DNA of 42,270 nt from Sulfurimonas sp. Its GTDB lineage: Bacteria > Campylobacterota > Campylobacteria > Campylobacterales > Sulfurimonadaceae. Location of the stretch: positions 1 to 42,270 of the forward strand of contig JAURYA010000049.1 of assembly GCA_030654155.1 (NCBI GenBank). Direction: 5' to 3'. The stretch's first letter is position 1. Each line of letters opens with the position of its first letter. Shown here in pieces: positions 3,316 to 15,957 of the stretch. Under the pieces are notes generated by a model. That model ran no database searches. It was not told the origin of the DNA and saw only the letters and a list, made by a program, of their open reading frames with translations. The position numbers were made by a program, and so were the translations under genes.

Positions 3316-4194
3316 ATGACTAAAGCCGGTTTCGTCTCTCTAATAGGTCGTCCAAATGCTGGAAAGAGCACACTAATGAACTCACTACTAGGTGAAAATA
3401 TTGCCATGGTTAGTCAAAAAGCCAATGCAACTAGAAAAAGATCAAATGCAATTGTTATGCATGAGAACACTCAAATAATCTTTGTTGACACTCCAGGATT
3501 GCACGAAAGAGAAAAGGTTTTAAATCAGTTTATGCTTGATGAAGCTCTAAAGGCTATGGGTGACTGTGATTTGATTGTATATCTGGCTCCAGTAACAGAC
3601 AGCGTTGAGCATTATGAAAAATTTTTAAAACTAAATAACTCTAAAATCAAACATATAATAGTATTAAGCAAAATAGATCAGGTTACTCAAGAAAAGCTGT
3701 TTAAAAAAATAGCTCAATATAACCAATTTTCAGACCATTTTGAAGCTCTTATTCCGATGGCGGTGCCTAAAAAAGTTGGGCACAAGGACCTGCTTGAAAC
3801 AATATCAAAGCTTTTGCCGGAGTCTCCGTTTCTTTTTGATCCAGAGGATCTGACAAGTGAGTTAGTAAGAGATATATATGCAGGGTTTATAAGAGAAGGG
3901 ATCTTTGAAAATGTCAGCGATGAGATTCCGTACGAATCAGATGTTTTAATAGACAAGATATATGAAGAGAAAAATGTAGACAGAATTATTGCTACCATCA
4001 TTGTAGAGAAAGAGTCTCAAAAAGGTATTATAATCGGCAAAGGCGGGGAGTCAATAAAAAGAATCGGAAAGTACTCCAGAGAAAAGATAGAGATGCTTAG
4101 TGGGAAAAAAGTTTATCTTGATTTACAGGTTGTTGTAAAAAAAGGGTGGACAAAAGATAAATCATATTTACAAGAGATAGGCTATATATCATGA
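3316..4194 (+). CDS. era: GTPase Era
   Basis: GRPNAGKSTLMN G1, DTPGLHE G3, SKID G4, C-terminal KH domain GIIIGKGGESIKRIG. Confidence 0.97.
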   Translation: MTKAGFVSLIGRPNAGKSTLMNSLLGENIAMVSQKANATRKRSNAIVMHENTQIIFVDTPGLHEREKVLNQFMLDEALKAMGDCDLIVYLAPVTDSVEHYEKFLKLNNSKIKHIIVLSKIDQVTQEKLFKKIAQYNQFSDHFEALIPMAVPKKVGHKDLLETISKLLPESPFLFDPEDLTSELVRDIYAGFIREGIFENVSDEIPYESDVLIDKIYEEKNVDRIIATIIVEKESQKGIIIGKGGESIKRIGKYSREKIEMLSGKKVYLDLQVVVKKGWTKDKSYLQEIGYIS

Positions 4195-5156
4195 AATTAC
4201 TACTACTTATTTTAATAAGCTTAAATGTTTTTGCTAGCAATATACTAACCAGTTATAGAGTTAACGGCGTTGCAGACATTGAAAAGCAGATGGATTTAGA
4301 ACTATCAAAAGAGGAATATTGGAGCAGTTACCTAGTTACAAAAGATACAACATTTGGCTATATAGAATCTTATCTTAACGTTCTTGCTTGTGATAAATCA
4401 AAATCAACATTAGACCTATACTCTACCGACCAAAACCAAAGTTTTAAATTTAAAAAAACATATAGCGCTTTTACAGGTAAAATAAAGGGCGATAAAACAA
4501 AAGAGGGTGATTTAAAAACTCCGGTAGGAATCTATCAAATAGTTCAAAAACTCTCTAAAGAGACAAATCTGGACCCTTTTTATGGTCCTTTTGCTTTTGT
4601 AACATCATACCCGAATCTGTATGACTCTTACAGAGGAAGAAATGGCTCTGGAATATGGATACATGGTCTTCCATCAGAAGATAGAGATTCGTTTACAAGA
4701 GGATGTATTGCGATAAACAATTCAAGTATTGAATGCTTAGATAGAAATATAGATATATCAAAAACTCTTATTATCATAAATGACTCAAGTGTTAAAACCA
4801 ATGTCTCAAAAGAGACACTATCTTCAATACTTGCACAGCTCTACTCTTGGAGATATGCTTGGCTTTATGATGATATAGAAAATTACCTAAGCTTCTATTC
4901 AACTCAATTTGTTAGACATGACGGCATGGATATTGAAAAATTTACAAGCTACAAAACAAGAGTCTTTAAAAAAGCTGAGAAAAAATCTATTTTATTTAAC
5001 GACATTAACGTTATTCCATATCCTGGCAATACAAATATATATCAAATTACTTTTAAAGAGTTCTATAAATCTAATAGTTTTGAGTTTATAGGCAATAAAA
5101 CATTAATTGTAGAATTTGATAAAAATAAAAAAATAAAAATACTAACCGAACTATAA
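4191..5156 (+). CDS. L,D-transpeptidase/L,D-carboxypeptidase fold protein (YkuD), Csd6/Pgp2-like
   Basis: Signal peptide; YkuD catalytic motif IWIHGLPSEDRDSFTRGCIAI; C-terminal NTF2-like-looking extension; size like Csd6/Pgp2. Confidence 0.8.
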   Translation: MKLLLLILISLNVFASNILTSYRVNGVADIEKQMDLELSKEEYWSSYLVTKDTTFGYIESYLNVLACDKSKSTLDLYSTDQNQSFKFKKTYSAFTGKIKGDKTKEGDLKTPVGIYQIVQKLSKETNLDPFYGPFAFVTSYPNLYDSYRGRNGSGIWIHGLPSEDRDSFTRGCIAINNSSIECLDRNIDISKTLIIINDSSVKTNVSKETLSSILAQLYSWRYAWLYDDIENYLSFYSTQFVRHDGMDIEKFTSYKTRVFKKAEKKSILFNDINVIPYPGNTNIYQITFKEFYKSNSFEFIGNKTLIVEFDKNKKIKILTEL

Positions 5157-5167
5157 AAGATATATAT

Positions 5168-6481
5168 ATGAAATATACTTTTATAAGAGTGTTTTTTGCT
5201 CTAAATATCTTTTTAACTCCTATATTTGGAGATGTTCAATTAATTAAAAAAGAAAACAGTGACTCAAACACAACTCTTCTTGTTATAGGCGGAATACATG
5301 GTGATGAGCCGGGCGGATATTTTTCTGCATCAATATTAGCAACTCATTATAAAATAAACTCAAAAAACCTCTGGATAGTTCCAAACCTAAATCAAGAAAG
5401 CATCCAAAAAGATAGCAGAGGCGTAAACGGAGATATGAACAGAAAATTCTCCATAATAAACAGTGGAGATAAAGATAAAAAAATTGTTGAAAATATTAAA
5501 GAGATAATTACCAAGAAAAATGTTTCTTTAGTTTTAAATCTACATGATGGCAATGGGTTTTACAGAAAAACTGACAAAGGAAATATTTTCAATCCGAATG
5601 CTTGGGGACAAACATGCGTAATTGATCAATGCGATTTAATTGAAAACCAGCCATTTGGAAACTTAAATACAATTGCTATTGACATTAAAGAGAGAATAAA
5701 CAAAAGACTTATAGAAGAACATCACACTTTTGACGTAAAAAATACTAACACAAAATTTGATGATGAAGCTATGCAGCTCTCTCTTACATATTTTGCAGTT
5801 ACAAACAACAAACCTGCTTTTGCAATAGAGAGCAGTAAAAACTTGCCTTCACTTTCTCAGAAAGTTTTTTATCATCTCCTTGCGATAGAAGAATTTATGA
5901 ACATTATGGATATATCTTTTACTAGAGAATTTGAATTAAATGAACAAAATATTGATCAAATACTGAAAACTTATGGAAATTTAAATATAAATAACAATAT
6001 CTCAATTAATTTAACTAACATAAAAAAATCTTTAAGCTTTATTCCGATAAAATCAGAGAGTAATGTATTTAAGTTTTCTAACCCACTGGGGAATGTTGTT
6101 AAAGAGAGTGGCGGCTTTGTTGTTTACATAGGCAATAAAAAAATTACAACTCTCGGTCCACAATATTTTAAGCAGGGAGAGTCTTGTATAGAAGAGTTTG
6201 AAGTCATGGCTGATGGAGTTAAAATTTCATTAGGTGAAACTTCAGATTTTTTTGTAAATGACGATTTTAATATCGTTAAAAAAGATGGTTATCGTGCGAA
6301 TATTATTGGTTACAAAGCAGTTGGTCGTCTTGATGAGAGCGGTGTAAACATTAAGCTTCAAGATTTTGACAAAAAATTCTCTATTGACGTAGACGACTTA
6401 GTTTACAGAATTGAGTTTTATAAAAATAATGAATTTTGTTCTATGTCCAAAGTTCATTTTAGACAGGATAATGCAAAATGA
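5168..6481 (+). CDS. Zinc carboxypeptidase M14-like, Csd4/Pgp1-like peptidoglycan DL-carboxypeptidase
   Basis: GGIHGDEPGG (HxxE) and LNLHDGNGF motifs; signal peptide; length (437 aa) like Csd4. Confidence 0.75.
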   Translation: MKYTFIRVFFALNIFLTPIFGDVQLIKKENSDSNTTLLVIGGIHGDEPGGYFSASILATHYKINSKNLWIVPNLNQESIQKDSRGVNGDMNRKFSIINSGDKDKKIVENIKEIITKKNVSLVLNLHDGNGFYRKTDKGNIFNPNAWGQTCVIDQCDLIENQPFGNLNTIAIDIKERINKRLIEEHHTFDVKNTNTKFDDEAMQLSLTYFAVTNNKPAFAIESSKNLPSLSQKVFYHLLAIEEFMNIMDISFTREFELNEQNIDQILKTYGNLNINNNISINLTNIKKSLSFIPIKSESNVFKFSNPLGNVVKESGGFVVYIGNKKITTLGPQYFKQGESCIEEFEVMADGVKISLGETSDFFVNDDFNIVKKDGYRANIIGYKAVGRLDESGVNIKLQDFDKKFSIDVDDLVYRIEFYKNNEFCSMSKVHFRQDNAK

Positions 6482-8031
6482 GTAAAAAAGAACAACACTC
6501 TTTCTCTAGTGTACTTTCTATTAATCCATACAAAAATACGTATGTCAGCGCCGTTGCAAGTTCTTTAAGAGTAACTACATCACCTGAATACAGTAAAGAA
6601 CAGTATGTAATCTCTTATCTGAATACAAAAAGTTTTATTAATAGCCATATTGTTATAAGCAAAAATATTCCAGATGAAGATTTGTATGATGCTATTTACA
6701 ATAAGGCATATGATGAGCTTGGGCTTGATCAAGCCATAATGTATCAAATAGAGTATATAGAAACTTTTAGCAATCTAGATGAAAGCAACAGAAGCTTCCA
6801 CGTATTTATAATAGACCCCATAACAGTTAATGATATATTTAAGAATGCGGTTGAAAAAATTAAATACATAGACTATATCATTCCCTCTCCTCTATTACTA
6901 AAGTCACTTTATTCTAGAGAGATTATACAAGATAGCGGTGTTCACTGTTTTATCTACTTCCAAGAGAATGATACTTCTATAACTATATATAATGAAAAAG
7001 AGTTCGTATATACAAAATCTATAAATTATTCATTCTTACAGATGCATGAGAGATTTTGTGAGATTCATGGAGAGATGGTTGAATATGAGGATTTTATTCA
7101 CTTTCTATCAAATGAGGACCTTAAAACTACTAACAATAGTTATAAAACAGATATTATAAAGCTCTACAAAGAGATATTTGCAAACATTAATGATATTTTA
7201 ACGTATGTAAAAAGAGCTTTGGATATAGATAAAATAGAGAGTGTATACATAGATACTCAGCTTTCTACAATAACTAAAATAGATGAGATGGCAGAAGTAG
7301 AGCTTAGCATTAAAAGCAGCAGTTTCAATTTTAACTATGGATTTAAAAGCGAAGATACTCACATTGATCACTTTCACTATCTTATGCAGATCTACACTAC
7401 TCTTCCTGAAAATGAGAGATATGAGTGTAATTTTACTACATATCATCGCCCTCCAAAATTTACACGAAGAGAGAGCGGACGCGCTATATTACTAGCTGCG
7501 GCTTCTTTAGTGCTTGTTTTTCTATATCCCGTATCATATTGGACGCTTACATATGCTCAAACATTACAATATACGCTTTTAGAGGAAGAGTATAAGAGTG
7601 TCCATAACATTAAAATAACAAGAGAAGCAATTATAAAAAGCAAAGAGGCTGAGAAGGATGGTGTATCAAAACTTCTAGCTCAGGCGCAGCAAGAGTATGT
7701 TGAGAAGAAAAATACACTCATAAAAATTCATGATGTAAAAGTTAATTACCCGATGAAAGCCAACCTTTTACAAATATTGACAAAAGAGTTGAATGACTAC
7801 GATGTCAAATTAGAAACTGCTTTTTATTCAGAAACAGAAATAGCAGATAAAAGCAGCACCTCAAAAGAGTTTAAGTTTGGTTTAGTATCTTCTAACGATA
7901 AAAAGATTACTGATTTAATTAAGTATCTAACTAAAACATATGAAGGAAAATTTCACTTCTCTATTAATGAGATATCATATAAAATAGAAGAGAAGTTGTA
8001 CTTTGGTGAATTAAAGGTGAATTTATTATGA
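6478..8031 (+). CDS. Pilus/T2SS-like inner membrane assembly protein (MshI / fused PilM-PilN-like; CtsX-position)
   Basis: Cytoplasmic N-terminal ASKHA-like region, single TM AILLAAASLVLVFLYPVSYW near 345-360, periplasmic coiled-coil; position ahead of PilO- and secretin-like genes. Confidence 0.6.
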   Translation: MSKKEQHSFSSVLSINPYKNTYVSAVASSLRVTTSPEYSKEQYVISYLNTKSFINSHIVISKNIPDEDLYDAIYNKAYDELGLDQAIMYQIEYIETFSNLDESNRSFHVFIIDPITVNDIFKNAVEKIKYIDYIIPSPLLLKSLYSREIIQDSGVHCFIYFQENDTSITIYNEKEFVYTKSINYSFLQMHERFCEIHGEMVEYEDFIHFLSNEDLKTTNNSYKTDIIKLYKEIFANINDILTYVKRALDIDKIESVYIDTQLSTITKIDEMAEVELSIKSSSFNFNYGFKSEDTHIDHFHYLMQIYTTLPENERYECNFTTYHRPPKFTRRESGRAILLAAASLVLVFLYPVSYWTLTYAQTLQYTLLEEEYKSVHNIKITREAIIKSKEAEKDGVSKLLAQAQQEYVEKKNTLIKIHDVKVNYPMKANLLQILTKELNDYDVKLETAFYSETEIADKSSTSKEFKFGLVSSNDKKITDLIKYLTKTYEGKFHFSINEISYKIEEKLYFGELKVNLL

Positions 8032-8666
8032 ATTTCAAATTAATGATCGAAGAGACCTTACAAAGAATTGATAATTTCTTTAAGGAAAAATCTCAAAAAG
8101 ATGTTTATATAGTCTATATAATGATAATTGCCATTTTAGCTGCATTGGCTTATCCGTTTTATGACCTAACCGCCAAAGAGTTTAATGTTATAAAAGACAA
8201 GGTTAAACAAATTACCACAAAAATAGATGCCGACAAAATTTACCTGAAGATAAACACAGAGGCAACGGTAGTTAAATTAGGGCAAGACATTATAACGCTA
8301 GAGGGTGAGCTGGTAACTCAAAGAGATACAAATAAGTATATTAAAGAGAAGATAGAGACAATATCATCATTAATATACGATGAAGTTGCGTGGGGTAAAT
8401 ATCTTAACTCTATATCCATACATGCTAAAGAGCACAACATGAAGATTATTAACTTTGTTAACACATATTCATTGAACAACGAGTCAGCTTTTGGCCATGT
8501 ACTGGATATCTCTCTTGATGTTAAGGGAAGCTTTTTAGATACGGTGAAGTTCATTAATTCTTTAGAGCAGAGTGAGCTGGTTGTAGATGTTCATGATTTG
8601 GACGTAAAAGCTCAAGATGCACTAAACACGAAGATTAAGATTTCAGTTTGGGGGATTACTTACTAA
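8028..8666 (+). CDS. PilO/MshJ-like inner membrane protein
   Basis: N-terminal TM VYIVYIMIIAILAALAYPFYDL followed by coiled-coil and ferredoxin-like C-terminus; 4-bp overlap with upstream gene. Confidence 0.6.
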   Translation: MNFKLMIEETLQRIDNFFKEKSQKDVYIVYIMIIAILAALAYPFYDLTAKEFNVIKDKVKQITTKIDADKIYLKINTEATVVKLGQDIITLEGELVTQRDTNKYIKEKIETISSLIYDEVAWGKYLNSISIHAKEHNMKIINFVNTYSLNNESAFGHVLDISLDVKGSFLDTVKFINSLEQSELVVDVHDLDVKAQDALNTKIKISVWGITY

Positions 8667-9142
8667 TGAAAACAACATTAATAACACTACTGGCAGTTTT
8701 TCTAAGTAGTACTCTTTTTGCCACAGAGTTAGAGTGGGTAGATGAGCAGATTGAGGCTATTAAACCCCCGAGAAAGGGCATTAGCATTTCAGGGGTTGGT
8801 GATCCTTTTATTTTCTTGGAAAAGAATAATCCAGAAGTAAAAAAGAAGGGCACTGCTTCTTCAGCACCTGACACTAGGGTGACAGCGGCAAAGCCATCTG
8901 TTCTCAAGCAGAAAGTTTGTCCTCCAGATGGAAATACGACCAAGAGCAGCGGCTTTGAATTAAACGCAATTATCAACTCAAAAGCGATGATCAATGGCAG
9001 TTGGTACAAAAAGAGCGACACAATAAATAGCTATACCGTTTTGGATATCAGTAAAAATTCTGTAACTCTAAAAAAAGGCGGCAAGGAACTTATCTTGTCA
9101 ACTGTTAATAAAAAACAAACTCTAAAATTCAAAAATAAGTAG
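8666..9142 (+). CDS. PilP/MshK-like periplasmic protein (CtsR-position)
   Basis: Signal peptide MKTTLITLLAVFLSSTLFA; small beta domain AIINSKAMINGSWYKKSDTINSYTVLDISKNSVTLKKGGKELIL typical of GspC-HR/PilP; TAATG overlap start. Confidence 0.6.
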   Translation: MKTTLITLLAVFLSSTLFATELEWVDEQIEAIKPPRKGISISGVGDPFIFLEKNNPEVKKKGTASSAPDTRVTAAKPSVLKQKVCPPDGNTTKSSGFELNAIINSKAMINGSWYKKSDTINSYTVLDISKNSVTLKKGGKELILSTVNKKQTLKFKNK

Positions 9143-9151
9143 GGCAGATTT

Positions 9152-10735
9152 ATGAAACTTATAAAAACAACAATGTGTACAACGCTTTTAACACTCCTTT
9201 TGTCAAGCAGTGCTTTGGCTGACTGTTCTTATGAACTATTTAGTATTAGTTCTACAAAAAACACTAAAATAATAGATTTCATAGAACAGCTTAGTGATGA
9301 GTGTGGTTTTAGTATTATTGTTACTGATCCCAATGCTCAAAAGTTTTTAGATTCTAATTTAAATAAAACAAATCTAAACAACTTAACGATAGATGAGGTT
9401 TTCAATATTGTACTAAAAGAGAATAACCTTGCATATACTCTTGAAAATAATATTTTAAAAATTTCATATCTTGATACTAAGATGTTTAATATTGACTATA
9501 TTCTTTCACAAAGAAAGAGTGAATCAAAAACGAACATAACACTCTCATCAGAGGGTGCCGGTCTTGCTTCTACAACTGGAATTACTACAAGTACTAAGAC
9601 TGAAGAAAAAGGCGGGGGTGCAGCGGGCAAATCTGGTATGAAGATTGATAGCACGGATGAAGTGCAATTTTGGAATCAACTGGATTTAGAGCTTCGAGAA
9701 GTTTTAAATAGGCCGCAAGATGTATATGTGGCACAGGCTCCTATTATAAATAAAAATGCGGGGATTATAACAGTTACTGCAACTGTTAAGCAGATGGAGA
9801 GATTGGAAAAATATCTTAAGAAACTTCAAGATAAAGTGCAGCTTCAGGTTTTAATAGATGTTCAGCTTTTATCTGTAACTCTGAGTAAAGGCAAGACTAC
9901 TGGTATTGACTGGTCGCAATTGTACAAACTTCAGGATATTGATGTCAGTATTGACAAACTGTTCCATAAAAACATATCAGAATTTGAAGATAATAAAATA
10001 ACAACAGCAATTGCCGGTGGTGGCGCTAGTGAAAACTCTCATCTTATAAAAATAAGTGCGAGCGGAAACTTAAATGAAGTTATAAAGTTTCTTAAAACTC
10101 AAGGTGATGTTACCTCTATCTCCAATCCAAAAGTTTTAACACTAAATAATCAAGCAGCACTTATAACTGCCGGTACAGAATATTTTTACAAAATAACAAG
10201 CACAGAAACGCTATCCGGTGCAACAAGCGGGACACAGAGCACGAGCGAAGATGTTCAATCAGTTTTTGCCGGCGTTCTGCTAGATATCACACCGGAGATT
10301 TCTGACGACAATACTATAACATTGAAGATAAACCCTTCTCTATCTGAAACAGCAAGCAGTACGTTTATTGCTGACAGTGCAGAAGACAGAACAATGCCAC
10401 CAGACCTTCGCCGTCGTCAACTCTCATCAGTTGTAACCGTGAAAGATGGAAATCGTATTATTTTAGGCGGTTTAATTAACACAAGCAACATTGTTAACAT
10501 AAATAAGCTTCCTATTTTAGGTGATATTCCTATATTGAATTACCTATTCAAATATGAGGATAGACAAAAAATTACTCAAGAACTTGTTATTGTAATTCAA
10601 CCGCGCATTATTGCTAAGGACAAAAAAGATTTATCTCTAGCGGACTTAGGCTATCAAGGTCTTTCTGAAAAAGTTTTGCTAAACGCTAAAGATGCGATTA
10701 CATCTACTGAAGATCTAGCAAAAGAGGAAAATTGA
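9152..10735 (+). CDS. Secretin (MshL/PilQ/CtsD-like)
   Basis: STN-like N-terminal domain, secretin C-terminal signature ..LDITPEISDDNTITLKINPSLSE..RRRQLSSVVTVKDGNRIILGGLI..LPILGDIPILNYLF. Confidence 0.9.
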   Translation: MKLIKTTMCTTLLTLLLSSSALADCSYELFSISSTKNTKIIDFIEQLSDECGFSIIVTDPNAQKFLDSNLNKTNLNNLTIDEVFNIVLKENNLAYTLENNILKISYLDTKMFNIDYILSQRKSESKTNITLSSEGAGLASTTGITTSTKTEEKGGGAAGKSGMKIDSTDEVQFWNQLDLELREVLNRPQDVYVAQAPIINKNAGIITVTATVKQMERLEKYLKKLQDKVQLQVLIDVQLLSVTLSKGKTTGIDWSQLYKLQDIDVSIDKLFHKNISEFEDNKITTAIAGGGASENSHLIKISASGNLNEVIKFLKTQGDVTSISNPKVLTLNNQAALITAGTEYFYKITSTETLSGATSGTQSTSEDVQSVFAGVLLDITPEISDDNTITLKINPSLSETASSTFIADSAEDRTMPPDLRRRQLSSVVTVKDGNRIILGGLINTSNIVNINKLPILGDIPILNYLFKYEDRQKITQELVIVIQPRIIAKDKKDLSLADLGYQGLSEKVLLNAKDAITSTEDLAKEEN

Positions 10736-11547
10736 AGCCAAGTATCTATGAAAACTCTAGGGATGTTTTTTTAGATACGGTTAACGCTAAAGATTACATC
10801 CAGCTTGAAAGAGTATCGACTATTTACCAATCTCTCAAAGACTCTATAGAAAAACCACTAAAAATGGTTCTTCTGTATGGCAAACCAGGAACTGGCAAAA
10901 GTATGTTTTTATCGAAACTTCACCATAACCTTATCTCTTCTCAAAAGGTATGTCTCTATAAAACTCCTATTTTAGACGAGAATGAATTTTTCAAAATACT
11001 TGCACAAGATTTGTATGGAATAAGTTATGAAGGTGAGCTAAATTTTACACAATTTATAAAAGTTGTAGAAAATAAAGAACTTCTTGGAACGACTATTCCA
11101 TTAATATTGCTGGATGAAGCACAGCTCTACTCAACACCTATGATGGAAAAAATCAGACTTTTGTCGGATACAAGAAAAGTAAAGTTTGTAATTGCTCTTC
11201 ATAAAACAGAAAAAGAGGACATTATTGCAAAAGAGCACTTTCAAACTAGGATTTGGGAGAGCATCAGACTTGAAAATGCCTCAACTTCAGAACTAAAAAT
11301 ATATATTCAAAAAAAACTTATGAAGGTAAACTGCATAGATACGGCAAGTATGTTTACACAAAAGTCAATAAATTTAGTTCATAAACTAACAGACGGAAAT
11401 TACAGAGATGTAAACAAACTAGTATATACGCTATTTGATATATATGTATATTATGCGAACAACAATCCAAATAAAATAAATACAAGCGAAATCTCAACTA
11501 AATTTATAGAGATGTCTGCTATTCATACAGGGCTAATTGATGCTTAA
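10732..11547 (+). CDS. ExeA/MshM-like AAA ATPase (CtsP-like), TTG start
   Basis: Walker A LYGKPGTGKS, Walker B PLILLDEAQL; start overlaps secretin stop. Confidence 0.8.
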   Translation: MKPSIYENSRDVFLDTVNAKDYIQLERVSTIYQSLKDSIEKPLKMVLLYGKPGTGKSMFLSKLHHNLISSQKVCLYKTPILDENEFFKILAQDLYGISYEGELNFTQFIKVVENKELLGTTIPLILLDEAQLYSTPMMEKIRLLSDTRKVKFVIALHKTEKEDIIAKEHFQTRIWESIRLENASTSELKIYIQKKLMKVNCIDTASMFTQKSINLVHKLTDGNYRDVNKLVYTLFDIYVYYANNNPNKINTSEISTKFIEMSAIHTGLIDA

Positions 11548-12397
11548 TGTTAACGATCTAGAAGCTAGACATAAAAAATATAAGATAAAATCTTATGCGC
11601 CATATTTTGTAATATTTGCTTCTGTAACGGTTGCCATTGTCTCTATAACTTCTTTTATTTTATATAACTCTAAAATAGAAATAGATATTGAAAAAGAAGA
11701 ACAAAATCTGCCGGTTATTGTGCAAAAAATTGAAGTGACATCTGCAACTAAAGAAAAAAATGAAACACTGCAAGAAGTAGAACAAAAAACAGTACAAGAA
11801 GCAGCAGTAGAACCGGTTGCAGCTAAAGAAGATATAAAGGCTGAACAAAAACAAGAAAAAGTTTCACTCTTTCCTTCATTGGATTTTATGGGGAAAATCG
11901 GCTCAAACAATCAAGTTTATTATACAAAGGAAACTATTAGCACTGCTCAAAAGGTACCCAAAGAAATAACCATTGATATAAAACAAGAAGAAAAAAAGCA
12001 AGAAGAAAAAATAGTGCCGAAAAAAGTAGAAAAGATTGAAGAAGTTGCCATAAATATTGATAAAAAGACCCCTATTAATATAGCTAGAAAAGATGAACAA
12101 GAAGATCTTTCACATGTTATAAAAAGATTTAATGTAAACCATAACCCAGCATTAAGTCTATTTATCGCAAAAAAATATTATCAATTAGGCAGCTATGAGC
12201 AGGCTTATAATTATGCACTAATGACTAATGAAATAAATAGCAACATAGAAGAGAGTTGGATAATATTTTCTAAGTCATTAGTCAAAATGGACAAGAAAGA
12301 CAAAGCAGTTGAGACGCTAAAAAAATACATTTCCCACTCAAGTTCTTCACAAGCTAAACAGCTATTAGATGAAATCTTATCAGGAAAATTCAAATGA
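11537..12397 (+). CDS. MshN-like TPR membrane protein
   Basis: N-terminal TM YFVIFASVTVAIVSITSFILY, K/E-rich linker, C-terminal TPR-like helices. Confidence 0.6.
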   Translation: MMLNVNDLEARHKKYKIKSYAPYFVIFASVTVAIVSITSFILYNSKIEIDIEKEEQNLPVIVQKIEVTSATKEKNETLQEVEQKTVQEAAVEPVAAKEDIKAEQKQEKVSLFPSLDFMGKIGSNNQVYYTKETISTAQKVPKEITIDIKQEEKKQEEKIVPKKVEKIEEVAINIDKKTPINIARKDEQEDLSHVIKRFNVNHNPALSLFIAKKYYQLGSYEQAYNYALMTNEINSNIEESWIIFSKSLVKMDKKDKAVETLKKYISHSSSSQAKQLLDEILSGKFK

Positions 12398-12936
12398 AGA
12401 TAGCACTAATAATACTAATATCAATAAACTTGTACGCTAGTATAAAACAAGATATGCTTAACCTTTACCAAGGCAAAAAGTACGAGGAAGTTTGCAATAT
12501 TGGTTTTAATAATTTTGAAAACTATAGAAATGATGAAGAGTATGTATCACTTTATGCATTTGCATGTCTTAATGCGGACTATATAGACCGCTTATCAGTA
12601 CCAACTATCATGCTTAAGCTTGCAAAAGAATCACGCTCAAATGCTGCATATTTTTCCATTATACTTATGCAAAAAAAACTTCTATACCATGCACTCTTGG
12701 ACAACTATGATGTATCTTCTCTAAATTTACCGACTACAGATTATGTTTTATCTAAAGTTTTTGATCTATACACTAAAATGAAAAATAATGAACAAAAAGA
12801 GTTTTATATTTTTGAAGATGAAAGTGACAAACAATTAAAATATAAACTTTATATTTTAAAAGATGGTAAAATAGATAAAATGGTTATTGAAGAGTTTCAT
12901 AATTCGATTAGTATTAAAAAACATATTTATTGGTAG
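12394..12936 (+). CDS. Uncharacterised secreted/periplasmic protein within the pilus-assembly operon
   Basis: Signal-peptide-like MKIALIILISINLYA; overlaps flanking gene; no recognised domain. Confidence 0.7.
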   Translation: MKIALIILISINLYASIKQDMLNLYQGKKYEEVCNIGFNNFENYRNDEEYVSLYAFACLNADYIDRLSVPTIMLKLAKESRSNAAYFSIILMQKKLLYHALLDNYDVSSLNLPTTDYVLSKVFDLYTKMKNNEQKEFYIFEDESDKQLKYKLYILKDGKIDKMVIEEFHNSISIKKHIYW

Positions 12937-12944
12937 GAGGCATT

Positions 12945-14678
12945 ATGGATAGAATTACATCTGATTTATTAGCAAATGGCTCCATAATGAAGAGTCAGGT
13001 CGATAGGCTGATTGCCAAAGGCCTTGACAGTAACTTGATTCTTAGGGACATTACCATATCTGGATTTATGACAATGGATAGGCTTGTACGCTTCATTGTT
13101 GACAAAATACAAAGCGGTGAGTATGACCTCTCAATTATTGATGACTACGATTACATTCAAGAAAAAGATATTCTAGTTAAATTGGCTCAAAAACAAAATG
13201 TCCAATTTCTTGATTTAGATTCAATAGATATGGATTATAAACTTACTGAAAAAATATCACTTGCCCAACTTAAAAAATATAATGCTTTTCCAATTTTAGA
13301 AGATGAGCTGAGTATTACAATTGCTTTTTGCGACCCTCTTAATATTGAAGCGCAGGAGTCAATACAGAGACTTTTTCCAAAAAAACCGATTAAAATAGCG
13401 GTAGCAACTAAAAAGCAGATTGAATCATATCTTTTTAAAATAGAATTAAAAGATAGTATAAAGGGATTGGTAAAAAAAATAAGAGATGAGTTAAATTCTA
13501 TTAACTCCATAGAAGAGCAGCAAGAAGCCTCTTCTATCCTTCTTTTGATTGATGTTATCTTAAATGCATGTATTAAAAATCGCGCAAGTGACGTGCATAT
13601 TGAGCCGACAGAAAAGAATTGTGTAGTCAGAACTCGTATTGACGGAAAATTAATAGAAATATTTATTTTTGAAAAGGATATCTACCCTCCTCTTGCTTCT
13701 AGACTTAAACTACTTGCAAACCTTGATATCGCGGAGAAAAGAAAACCGCAAGATGGGCGTTTTTCAACGATGGTCAGCTCCAGAGAGTATGACTTCCGTA
13801 TATCTACGCTTCCAATTTTATATGGTGAATCTATCGTTATGAGGGTGCTTGACAAACAAAAAGCCCTTGTTAGGCTTGAAGATGCCGGAATGGACAGTGT
13901 TAGCTATCAAAAATTTTTAAAAGCATTGCAAACGCCTTATGGTATTATACTTGTAACCGGTCCAACGGGAAGCGGTAAGACTACAACTTTATATGGTGCT
14001 TTAAATGAACTTAGAAATGTTGAAGATAAAGTTATTACGGTTGAAGACCCGGTAGAGTATAGAATGAACCTTATCCAACAAGTCCAAGTTAATCCAAAAG
14101 TTGGTCTTACTTTTGCTGCAGCTCTTCGCTCAATACTAAGACAAGATCCTGATAAGATAATGATTGGTGAGATTCGTGATTCTGAAACATTAGAAATTGC
14201 GGTAAAAGCCGCACTTACAGGTCACTTAGTAATTTCCACACTGCATACAAACGACTCCATAAGTGCAGTTACTCGTATGGTTGACATGGGTATTGCCCCA
14301 TATCTTATCAGTGGCTCTCTTGTTGCAATACAGGCTCAAAGACTTGTAAGGAAAATTTGCCCAACCTGCAAAACGGAAGAAAAAGTTTCAGTATCATCAC
14401 TTGAGGAACTCAAACATTTAGTTCCAGCAGATAGTAAATTTTACATTGGAAAAGGTTGTAAAGAGTGCAATGAAACTGGCTATTTTGGCAGGGAAATGAT
14501 TTGTGAAGTTTTAGTTGTAAACGAAAAAATATCATCTCTTATTGCAAAAAATGCGTCGGTAGAGTTAATACATGCTCAAGCGTTAGAGGATGGATTTGTC
14601 GGGATATTTGAAAACGGTATCAACAAAGCTCTTGCTGGTGTTACAAGTTTAGAAGAAATTTTAAGGGTGGCAAAATAA
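12945..14678 (+). CDS. GspE/PilB/MshE-family assembly ATPase (CtsE-like)
   Basis: Walker A GPTGSGKTTTLYGAL, Asp box, His box HLVISTLHTND, tetracysteine CPTCK..CKECNETGYFGR; RBS taggagg before ATG 12945. Confidence 0.95.
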   Translation: MDRITSDLLANGSIMKSQVDRLIAKGLDSNLILRDITISGFMTMDRLVRFIVDKIQSGEYDLSIIDDYDYIQEKDILVKLAQKQNVQFLDLDSIDMDYKLTEKISLAQLKKYNAFPILEDELSITIAFCDPLNIEAQESIQRLFPKKPIKIAVATKKQIESYLFKIELKDSIKGLVKKIRDELNSINSIEEQQEASSILLLIDVILNACIKNRASDVHIEPTEKNCVVRTRIDGKLIEIFIFEKDIYPPLASRLKLLANLDIAEKRKPQDGRFSTMVSSREYDFRISTLPILYGESIVMRVLDKQKALVRLEDAGMDSVSYQKFLKALQTPYGIILVTGPTGSGKTTTLYGALNELRNVEDKVITVEDPVEYRMNLIQQVQVNPKVGLTFAAALRSILRQDPDKIMIGEIRDSETLEIAVKAALTGHLVISTLHTNDSISAVTRMVDMGIAPYLISGSLVAIQAQRLVRKICPTCKTEEKVSVSSLEELKHLVPADSKFYIGKGCKECNETGYFGREMICEVLVVNEKISSLIAKNASVELIHAQALEDGFVGIFENGINKALAGVTSLEEILRVAK

Positions 14679-15922
14679 TGAAATACTTTGTAGCGACTAT
14701 ACTTACAAAAGGTAAAAAAGAACAGATTGGGATGTATGCTGAAGATAGAAAGCAGGCTAATGAGCTTACAAAACTAAAGCACGCTGGAATTATAATTAAA
14801 ATTTCAGAAGAACAAGAGCCTATGGAAGCCCAATTTAAGAGATTTAAAACAAATTTACTAAGCAATGTTAAAAAAAGAAAAATAAGACCTGATGCATTAA
14901 TTGCATCTGTTAGACAATTAGCAGTTATGACAAATGCAGGTATATCAATTTACGATTCATTGAGTGAAATTGCAAAATCAACAACTGATGAAAATTTAAA
15001 ACTTGTTTTTAGCAAACTAGCAGAAGATATTAACTCTGGACATTCACTTTCTAAATCTATGGAAAATTTTCGTTTTGAGCTTGGCAATTTAGCCATTGCG
15101 ATGGTTCAACTTGGCGAAAAAACGGGTAATCTAGACGATGCACTCTATTCACTTGCGGATATGCTTGAAGAGATTCGTGCAAACTTTGTTAAATTTAAAA
15201 AAGCCATGGCATATCCAAGAAACGTTATGATTGCAATGGCAATAGCTTTTACAATTCTAATATCTTATGTTGTTCCTGAGTTTAAGTCTATTTTTGAAGA
15301 GCTTAATGCTAAATTACCTCTGCCTACGCTGATTTTGCTAAAACTTGAACATCTATTTAACAACTACGGATTATACGTATTGGCTGTTTTAGTTGTCTCT
15401 TTTACAATCTTTAAGTACTTAATAAATAACTACAAGGAGATCAGATATGGCTGGCATGAAGTCTTGCTAAAAACATATCTTATTAAAAATATTATTATGT
15501 TTGCAACACTTAGCCGTTTTACTCTTGTATTTTCAGAACTAATTCGTGCGGGTATTCCAATCGCCGAAGCACTCGACACTTCAATATCTATGATTGACAG
15601 TCTTCCCCTAAAAGCTAAACTTTCATCAGTTAGATTTGCTGTTGAAAAAGGCTCCTCTTTGCATGAAGGGTTAGCGGATACAAAATTATTTGAAAATATG
15701 ATTATTCAAATGGTTAGCGCTGGGGAGGATAGTGGTACTTTGGACGCTATGATAAGCAAAGTAGCGCAGTACTATAAAATGAGATTTGATGCAATTATTG
15801 ACGGTCTATCAGAAGCAATTGAGCCAATTATGTTGCTAATACTGGCGAGCATGATTCTCCTTCTTGCTCTTGGTATTTTCTTGCCGATGTGGGACATGGG
15901 TAACGCAGTCCAAGGAAGATGA
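14678..15922 (+). CDS. GspF/PilC/MshG-family inner membrane platform protein (CtsF-like)
   Basis: RQLAVMTNAGISIYDSL..; ..ELIRAGIPIAEALD; T2SSF repeats and three TMs. Confidence 0.93.
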   Translation: MKYFVATILTKGKKEQIGMYAEDRKQANELTKLKHAGIIIKISEEQEPMEAQFKRFKTNLLSNVKKRKIRPDALIASVRQLAVMTNAGISIYDSLSEIAKSTTDENLKLVFSKLAEDINSGHSLSKSMENFRFELGNLAIAMVQLGEKTGNLDDALYSLADMLEEIRANFVKFKKAMAYPRNVMIAMAIAFTILISYVVPEFKSIFEELNAKLPLPTLILLKLEHLFNNYGLYVLAVLVVSFTIFKYLINNYKEIRYGWHEVLLKTYLIKNIIMFATLSRFTLVFSELIRAGIPIAEALDTSISMIDSLPLKAKLSSVRFAVEKGSSLHEGLADTKLFENMIIQMVSAGEDSGTLDAMISKVAQYYKMRFDAIIDGLSEAIEPIMLLILASMILLLALGIFLPMWDMGNAVQGR

Positions 15923-15933
15923 TAGATAAAGAA

Positions 15934-15957
15934 AGATATAGGAACTATCCTATATCT
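15934..15957. terminator. Intergenic hairpin, candidate bidirectional terminator between convergent genes
   Basis: agatatagga-acta-tcctatatct: perfect 10-bp stem, 4-nt loop, between gspF-like and yebC stops. Confidence 0.6.

Follow-up and report, generated by a model that had tools for sequence, protein, structure and literature searches.

The stretch of DNA analysed here, referred to throughout as the window, comprises 42,270 nucleotides from a Sulfurimonas sp. (assembly GCA_030654155.1, contig JAURYA010000049.1), and its central feature is a run of nine consecutive + strand genes (6478-15922) in the order of mannose-sensitive haemagglutinin (MSHA) pilus loci, I-J-K-L-M-N-(180 aa)-E-G. We consider it likely that the products of these genes form the envelope-spanning apparatus that assembles a retractile type IV pilus (T4P) of the MSH branch, a pilus that would use dispersed pilins, be extended by MshE and be retracted by PilT and PilU, with DNA capture as its most likely conserved job. 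Systems of this kind are already known; what is added here is their link to the Cts competence machine of Campylobacter jejuni, the clusters of candidate pilins and a contrast in the presence of PilT-type ATPases.

The nine genes of the operon

The features of the operon, with the evidence on which each assignment is based, are as follows.

6478..8031, + strand: MshI-like protein, 517 aa, with PilM (actin-like), transmembrane/coiled-coil helix and PilN-like parts apparently fused (AlphaFold2 and Foldseek)
8028..8666, + strand: MshJ-like PilO-type inner-membrane protein, 212 aa (Pfam PilO and conserved position)
8648..9142, + strand: MshK-like PilP/GspC-like periplasmic link, 164 aa, counterpart of CtsR (weak profile and phmmer matches)
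9152..10735, + strand: MshL secretin, 527 aa, CtsD/PilQ orthologue (TIGR02519)
10732..11547, + strand: MshM-like (ExeA-type) AAA ATPase, 271 aa, CtsP orthologue (AAA_22, 38.3 bits)
11537..12397, + strand: MshN-like membrane tetratricopeptide repeat (TPR) protein, 286 aa, counterpart of CtsX (TPR-type match)
12394..12936, + strand: exported 180-aa protein specific to Campylobacterota, with TPRs and a beta C-terminus (alignment and model)
12930..14678, + strand: MshE-like assembly ATPase, 582 aa, CtsE orthologue (T2SSE, 435.6 bits; MshEN, 55.2 bits; tree)
14678..15922, + strand: MshG-like inner-membrane platform, 414 aa, CtsF orthologue (T2SSF, 174 bits; concatenated tree)
15934..15957, between the operon and the convergent yebC: terminal hairpin with a 10-bp stem and a 4-nt loop (sequence, terminator scan and RNA fold)

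A sequence-only reading of the window had described nine overlapping genes in MSHA order that end at a hairpin with no pilin or prepilin peptidase beside them, and most of this description stood. The coordinates and the order were upheld by profiles, a structural model and conserved position. Overlap was found at seven of the eight gene junctions (8028/8031, 8648/8666, 9142/9152, 10732/10735, 11537/11547, 12394/12397, 12930/12936 and 14678/14678), the sole exception being that of MshK and MshL, which are separated by a 9-bp gap. The terminal stem-loop is also real by comparison with shuffled sequences, being much more stable than these (-20.3 kcal/mol, z = -5.0), and genome-wide searches gave no prepilin and no Peptidase_A24 match on the contig of the window.

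The first gene had no family match in profile searches. Its AlphaFold2 model (predicted local distance difference test, pLDDT, 84) combines an actin-like domain with a long helix and a ferredoxin-like terminus, and the best Foldseek matches of the model are the PilM proteins of Myxococcus and Pseudomonas (E about 1e-12; PilM 4.6e-13), so that on the predicted structure it is a fused PilM-PilN protein with a PilN-like C-terminus. The MshJ-like protein scores 19.5 bits against Pfam PilO, slightly below the cut-off of 22 bits, and the MshK-like protein has weak matches to the CdsD_C and T2SSB profiles. The secretin exceeds the cut-off of the NCBI MshL model TIGR02519 (258.3 against 250.2 bits), and MshL-type secretins occur in 178 of 200 genomes of the phylum when paralogues are counted. 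The identity of MshM is drawn from its position and the type of AAA domain. The 180-aa protein, for which profile searches gave no family match, has two invariant cysteines in an alignment; its model (pLDDT 90) found no close fold in the PDB, with only generic TPR matches in the fold search.

The same pilin-less order was found among 20 fetched neighbourhoods in families f1, f3, f8, f10 and f11, which are the family of the window and four others, and the nine-gene arrangement is thus beyond chance. The 180-aa gene is missing or uncalled in three of these relatives (G146, G108 and G074). Two genes, the MshL gene of G191 (L061) and the MshI gene of G145 (L063), are each divided into two reading frames, through either assembly error or decay. 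The MshL secretin is missing in genus g18, which we take to be Helicobacter. Transformation in Helicobacter uses a system derived from type IV secretion (PMC6668835).

Kinship with MSH loci and with Cts

The MSH class of type IV filaments is defined by the mandatory genes mshL, mshA, mshE, mshG and mshM, with mshA allowed as a loner, and its loci were reported in Epsilonproteobacteria in 2019 (PMC6668835). Alongside the secretin, the operon holds mshE, mshG and mshM, all in MSHA order (T2SSE with MshEN, T2SSF and AAA_22, respectively). MSH systems are encoded almost exclusively in a single locus, as a tendency rather than a strict requirement, and no locus contains a prepilin peptidase (PMC6668835). 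The missing adjacent peptidase is therefore no distinguishing sign. The operon departs from the single-locus tendency, the candidate pilins lying in three other clusters.

With the MSHA loci of Vibrio and Aeromonas, of which the Aeromonas locus served as our reference, the operon shares the I-J-K-L-M-N-E-G order, the presence of MshM and MshN and the lack of a prepilin peptidase gene. It differs from them in having no adjacent pilin block, whereas Aeromonas (L121) has pilin genes after MshG, in the additional 180-aa gene between MshN and MshE, and in an MshE without the cyclic di-GMP (c-di-GMP) motif. The ATPase tree places Aeromonas MshE next to the clade of the window, across a branch with 89/82 support, Aeromonas itself being on a long branch. 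One record with an MSHA locus, NZ_AP026896.1 (Aeromonas caviae, 4.94 Mb), is listed as a plasmid and is probably a mislabelled chromosome. Several Campylobacterota carry other MSH-type loci (L130, L132, L135, L137, L141 and L143), which have the same I-J-K-L-M-N-E-G core but pilins on both sides of it, and which form a clade of their own. A relaxed form of the c-di-GMP motif is present in at least one copy in the ATPases of six of six such pilin-flanked loci and in none of the 18 operons of the window's clade. Two 24-residue c-di-GMP-binding motifs are a trait of Vibrio MshE and couple MSHA to attachment (PMC5013675). Because all 18 ATPases of the clade are without the motif, the usual MSHA switch is probably missing here.

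The likeness to the cts locus, which the sequence-only reading had offered as a resemblance, is stronger than that, being upheld by both tree and synteny. Cts of C. jejuni comprises ctsR-D-P-X-E-F together with CtsG, CtsT and Cj0683, and shares with the operon an orthologous secretin, ATPase and platform, the K-L-M-N-E-G order, and pilin genes located elsewhere, one of them before priA. From sequence and position, CtsR is the counterpart of MshK, CtsD of MshL, CtsP of MshM, CtsX of MshN, CtsE of MshE and CtsF of MshG. In our collection the short form of G112, which sits after a 1187-aa gene, is closely related to loci of named Campylobacter genomes, among them C. jejuni and C. coli (78-95% identity). 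In these two species a 1186-aa gene is followed by a gene of 98-107 aa and then by CtsD (470-472 aa), CtsP (167-202 aa), CtsX (172-226 aa), CtsE (519-520 aa) and CtsF (392-393 aa), lengths that agree with the cts table in PMC8308473. Against the named C. jejuni and C. coli proteins, MshL scored 243-244 bits with CtsD, the MshM-like protein 49-56 bits with the gene after ctsD, the MshN-like protein 30-39 bits with genes in the CtsX position and the MshK-like protein a weak 14-21 bits (phmmer) with the 98-107 aa gene before ctsD. What the operon has beyond Cts are MshI, MshJ and the 180-aa gene, which is absent from cts loci, with PilT and PilU in the genome; it also follows era, csd6 and M99 genes, whereas ctsR follows the 1186-aa gene.

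A tree of the concatenated ATPase, secretin and platform placed cts inside the clade of the window, beside other Campylobacteraceae. In approximately unbiased (AU) tests, joining cts to the pilin-flanked MSH loci was rejected (p-AU 0.004), as was placing it outside both groups (p-AU 0.023), in a tree that left out L072, a Helicobacteraceae-like locus with a very long branch. When L072 was kept, the cts group fell in an unresolved trichotomy at the root of the clade, and the ATPase alone did not resolve the position of cts among MSH-like groups. Since cts nests in the clade and the tested alternatives were rejected, the nine genes appear to be a fuller, apparently ancestral version of Cts, and Cts a shrunken descendant.

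A 2025 preprint describes T4P clusters in about half of Campylobacterota species, with pilMNOPQ in which pilM and pilN are fused, and with PilB, PilC, PilT and PilU (PMC11870540). It says that C. jejuni encodes no other T4P components and leaves Cts unmentioned, and no pilin loci are described in the parts available to us. These clusters are probably the same gene set as ours, namely a fused MshI followed by PilO-, PilP- and PilQ-type genes, with PilT and PilU in the genome. Our literature search found no paper linking Campylobacterota MSH loci or T4P clusters to Cts, and none on competence in Sulfurimonas.

Dispersed candidate pilins, retraction ATPases and DNA-uptake partners

That (pseudo)pilins might lie elsewhere had been anticipated from the window, and a genome-wide prepilin search located candidates in three distant clusters. 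The assembly (1.97 Mb, 153 contigs, 95% complete) contains seven, not eight, distinct N-methyl pilin genes, of which two belong to a second secretin system on contig C106, two lie on C137, two on C20 and one on C3. C137 carries two GspG-like pilin genes (pilA1 and pilA2) before priA, from which a small toxin-antitoxin-like gene pair separates them (L074:3698-4212); genes of similar size stand at the equivalent place in G126 (L086). On C20, two pilin genes and a third pilin-like gene lie beside hpf and recG, and on C3 a FimT-like pilin gene lies beside POR genes, hpf, recG and POR being assigned by reading the sequences, without profile matches. A fragment of a prepilin peptidase gene was found at a contig edge.

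These clusters are kept in genomes where the operon is the only system: pilins precede priA, minor pilins neighbour hpf and usually recG as well, and a FimT-like pilin is present. Between one and three pilin genes directly precede priA in the window genome and the full-operon relatives examined, and one does so in C. jejuni; the FimT-like gene is beside POR genes in G126, G186 and G163 and elsewhere in G009, G146 and G115. In C. jejuni 414 the pilin directly before priA (145 aa) has pilA2 as its best match, and a 171-aa pilin of CtsG size best matches pilA1 (55 bits), the scores of L074 against the C. jejuni 414 loci L158 and L159 being 35 and 55 bits. The published position of Cj0683 is likewise directly before priA; it is needed for efficient DNA uptake, which its loss nearly abolishes (PMC10046745). 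Downstream of a gene of CtsT size (100 aa) come two more, the second of them a match to the minor pilin-like minX (26 bits).

The minor pilins are preceded in L085, L087, L090, L093, L095, L097 and L113 by the gene for a very large protein, whose complete or nearly complete copies measure 1250-1380 aa and which has a signal peptide wherever the start is visible and a C-terminus much better conserved than the body. Profile searches found no MshQ or PilY1 family match in it, and phmmer no match to the Aeromonas genes downstream of mshG.

The second secretin system (L003) has its own 318-aa pilin, ATPase and platform. The end of C106 and the start of C61 (L073) share about 140 bp without a mismatch, from which we conclude that the two contigs join, and the start of a further pilin of this system is common to both edges. 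Once joined, the system is complete, with a fused PilM-N, N- and P-like genes, a lipoprotein secretin, a TPR protein, a large pilin, an ATPase with a c-di-GMP motif domain match, a platform and a small pilin. It was considered as the owner of all the pilins and rejected, having pilins of its own, while the other clusters persist in genomes without a C106-type system.

PilT and PilU are both present in the window genome, above the cut-off of TIGR01420. A single assembly ATPase is accompanied by two PilT-type ATPases in five relatives (G009, G126, G186, G116 and G146) and by one in G115, whereas the short-form (cts) genomes G111, G112 and G087 have a single ATPase and none of PilT type; this contrast covers 21 genomes and may reflect just one or two independent losses. 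Counts of the T2SSE family across the phylum, which do not split PilT-type from assembly ATPases, go in the same direction, being mostly one in genus g14 (Campylobacter-type) and at least three in families f1, f8, f10 and f11. Of the DNA-uptake partners for which the sequence-only reading proposed a search, ComEC and an exported ComEA of 84 aa are present.

Proposed function, alternatives and neighbouring genes

In the mechanism we propose, MshE would power the polymerisation of PilA-type pilins at the MshG platform, MshI, MshJ and MshK would bridge the inner membrane and the MshL secretin, and MshM and MshN, judging by the roles of their families, would probably help to build or place the secretin. 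The polymerised pilins would come from pilA1-pilA2 before priA, the three minor pilin-like genes by hpf and recG and the FimT-like pilin by the POR genes. PilT and PilU would retract the filament and pull captured DNA through the secretin to periplasmic ComEA, from which ComEC would take it into the cytoplasm; this role in uptake is suggested by orthology to C. jejuni. The pilus probably also serves in surface attachment, since relatives encode the large exported protein alongside their minor pilins.

One alternative, put forward in the sequence-only reading, is a dedicated short competence pseudopilus such as that inferred for C. jejuni, with no role at the surface. It would account for the orthology to cts, the resemblance of the pilins to Cj0683 and CtsG, the presence of ComEC and ComEA and the lack of an adjacent adhesin, and we nevertheless regard it as unlikely: the window genome has PilT and PilU, genomes with the full operon have two ATPases of this type, also when they lack any other system, and the sampled reduced cts genomes have none, and relatives encode the exported protein of 1250-1380 aa with their minor pilins. 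Since single-system relatives keep both these pilins and two PilT/PilU-type ATPases, a retractile, DNA-capable pilus is the better reading. PilT, PilU and the large protein, along with the MSHA gene order and the MshL equivalog match, would also suit an adhesive or motility pilus of MSHA type without DNA uptake, the latter having arisen only in Campylobacter after the operon shrank. To this we give a somewhat lower probability still, given a priA-linked pilin conserved from the genus of the window to C. jejuni, the presence of ComEA and ComEC, and an assembly ATPase without the motif that couples MSHA to attachment in Vibrio (PMC5013675). A type II secretion system or other non-pilus machine is very improbable. 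The TIGR models for GspE, GspF and GspD score well yet below their cut-offs, those Campylobacterota loci whose sequences fall with Aeromonas ExeE and E. coli GspE make up another clade, and the locus has MshM and MshN and no pilins; the trees and the pilin-less locus led us to drop type II secretion. The flagellar cage FcpMNO, derived from PilMNO, was also discarded, as M and N are fused here and a secretin, ATPase and platform are present, while its hallmark is unfused M, N and O next to miaB with no secretin (PMC11870540).

Several points weigh against the retractile, DNA-capable pilus. PilT and PilU could also serve the C106 system; the likeness of CtsR to MshK and of CtsX to MshN is weak (14-39 bits) and partly based on position; a contig edge interrupts the minor-pilin cluster, leaving only the last 66 residues of the large protein visible in the window genome (L075); and the proposed pairing of pilins with machine draws on conservation in single-system genomes, not on interaction.

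On balance we favour a view of the C. jejuni competence machine as a stripped descendant of a retractile MSH-type pilus ancestral in Campylobacterota, which would have lost its PilM/N/O-type parts, both retraction ATPases and the large exported protein and kept DNA import. Cts serves as a model of how an important food-borne pathogen takes up DNA, and its parts list has looked odd, with no PilMNO, no PilT and scattered pilins. Its descent, as a remnant, from a complete pilus system with dispersed genes would explain these oddities, name counterparts for CtsR, CtsP and CtsX and provide candidate pilins. If so, Cts would offer a natural experiment on DNA uptake in the absence of a retraction ATPase, and raises the question of how DNA is pulled once the retraction motors are lost.

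Upstream of the operon, and outside the machine, lies one further feature.

4191..6481, + strand: csd6-like L,D-transpeptidase family gene and Peptidase_M99 (Csd4-type) helical-shape gene (context)

These two genes were identified by Pfam YkuD with Cds6_C and by Peptidase_M99, respectively. The Peptidase_M99 gene (5168-6481) shares its last 4 bp with MshI, and the run of genes in this direction, rplI-hslV-hslU-era-csd6-M99, thus begins before 6478. A guess from gene sizes that the upstream neighbours were flhF and flhG was wrong, the genes being hslU and era. Helical-shape genes related to Csd6 and Csd4 lead straight into a pilus operon.

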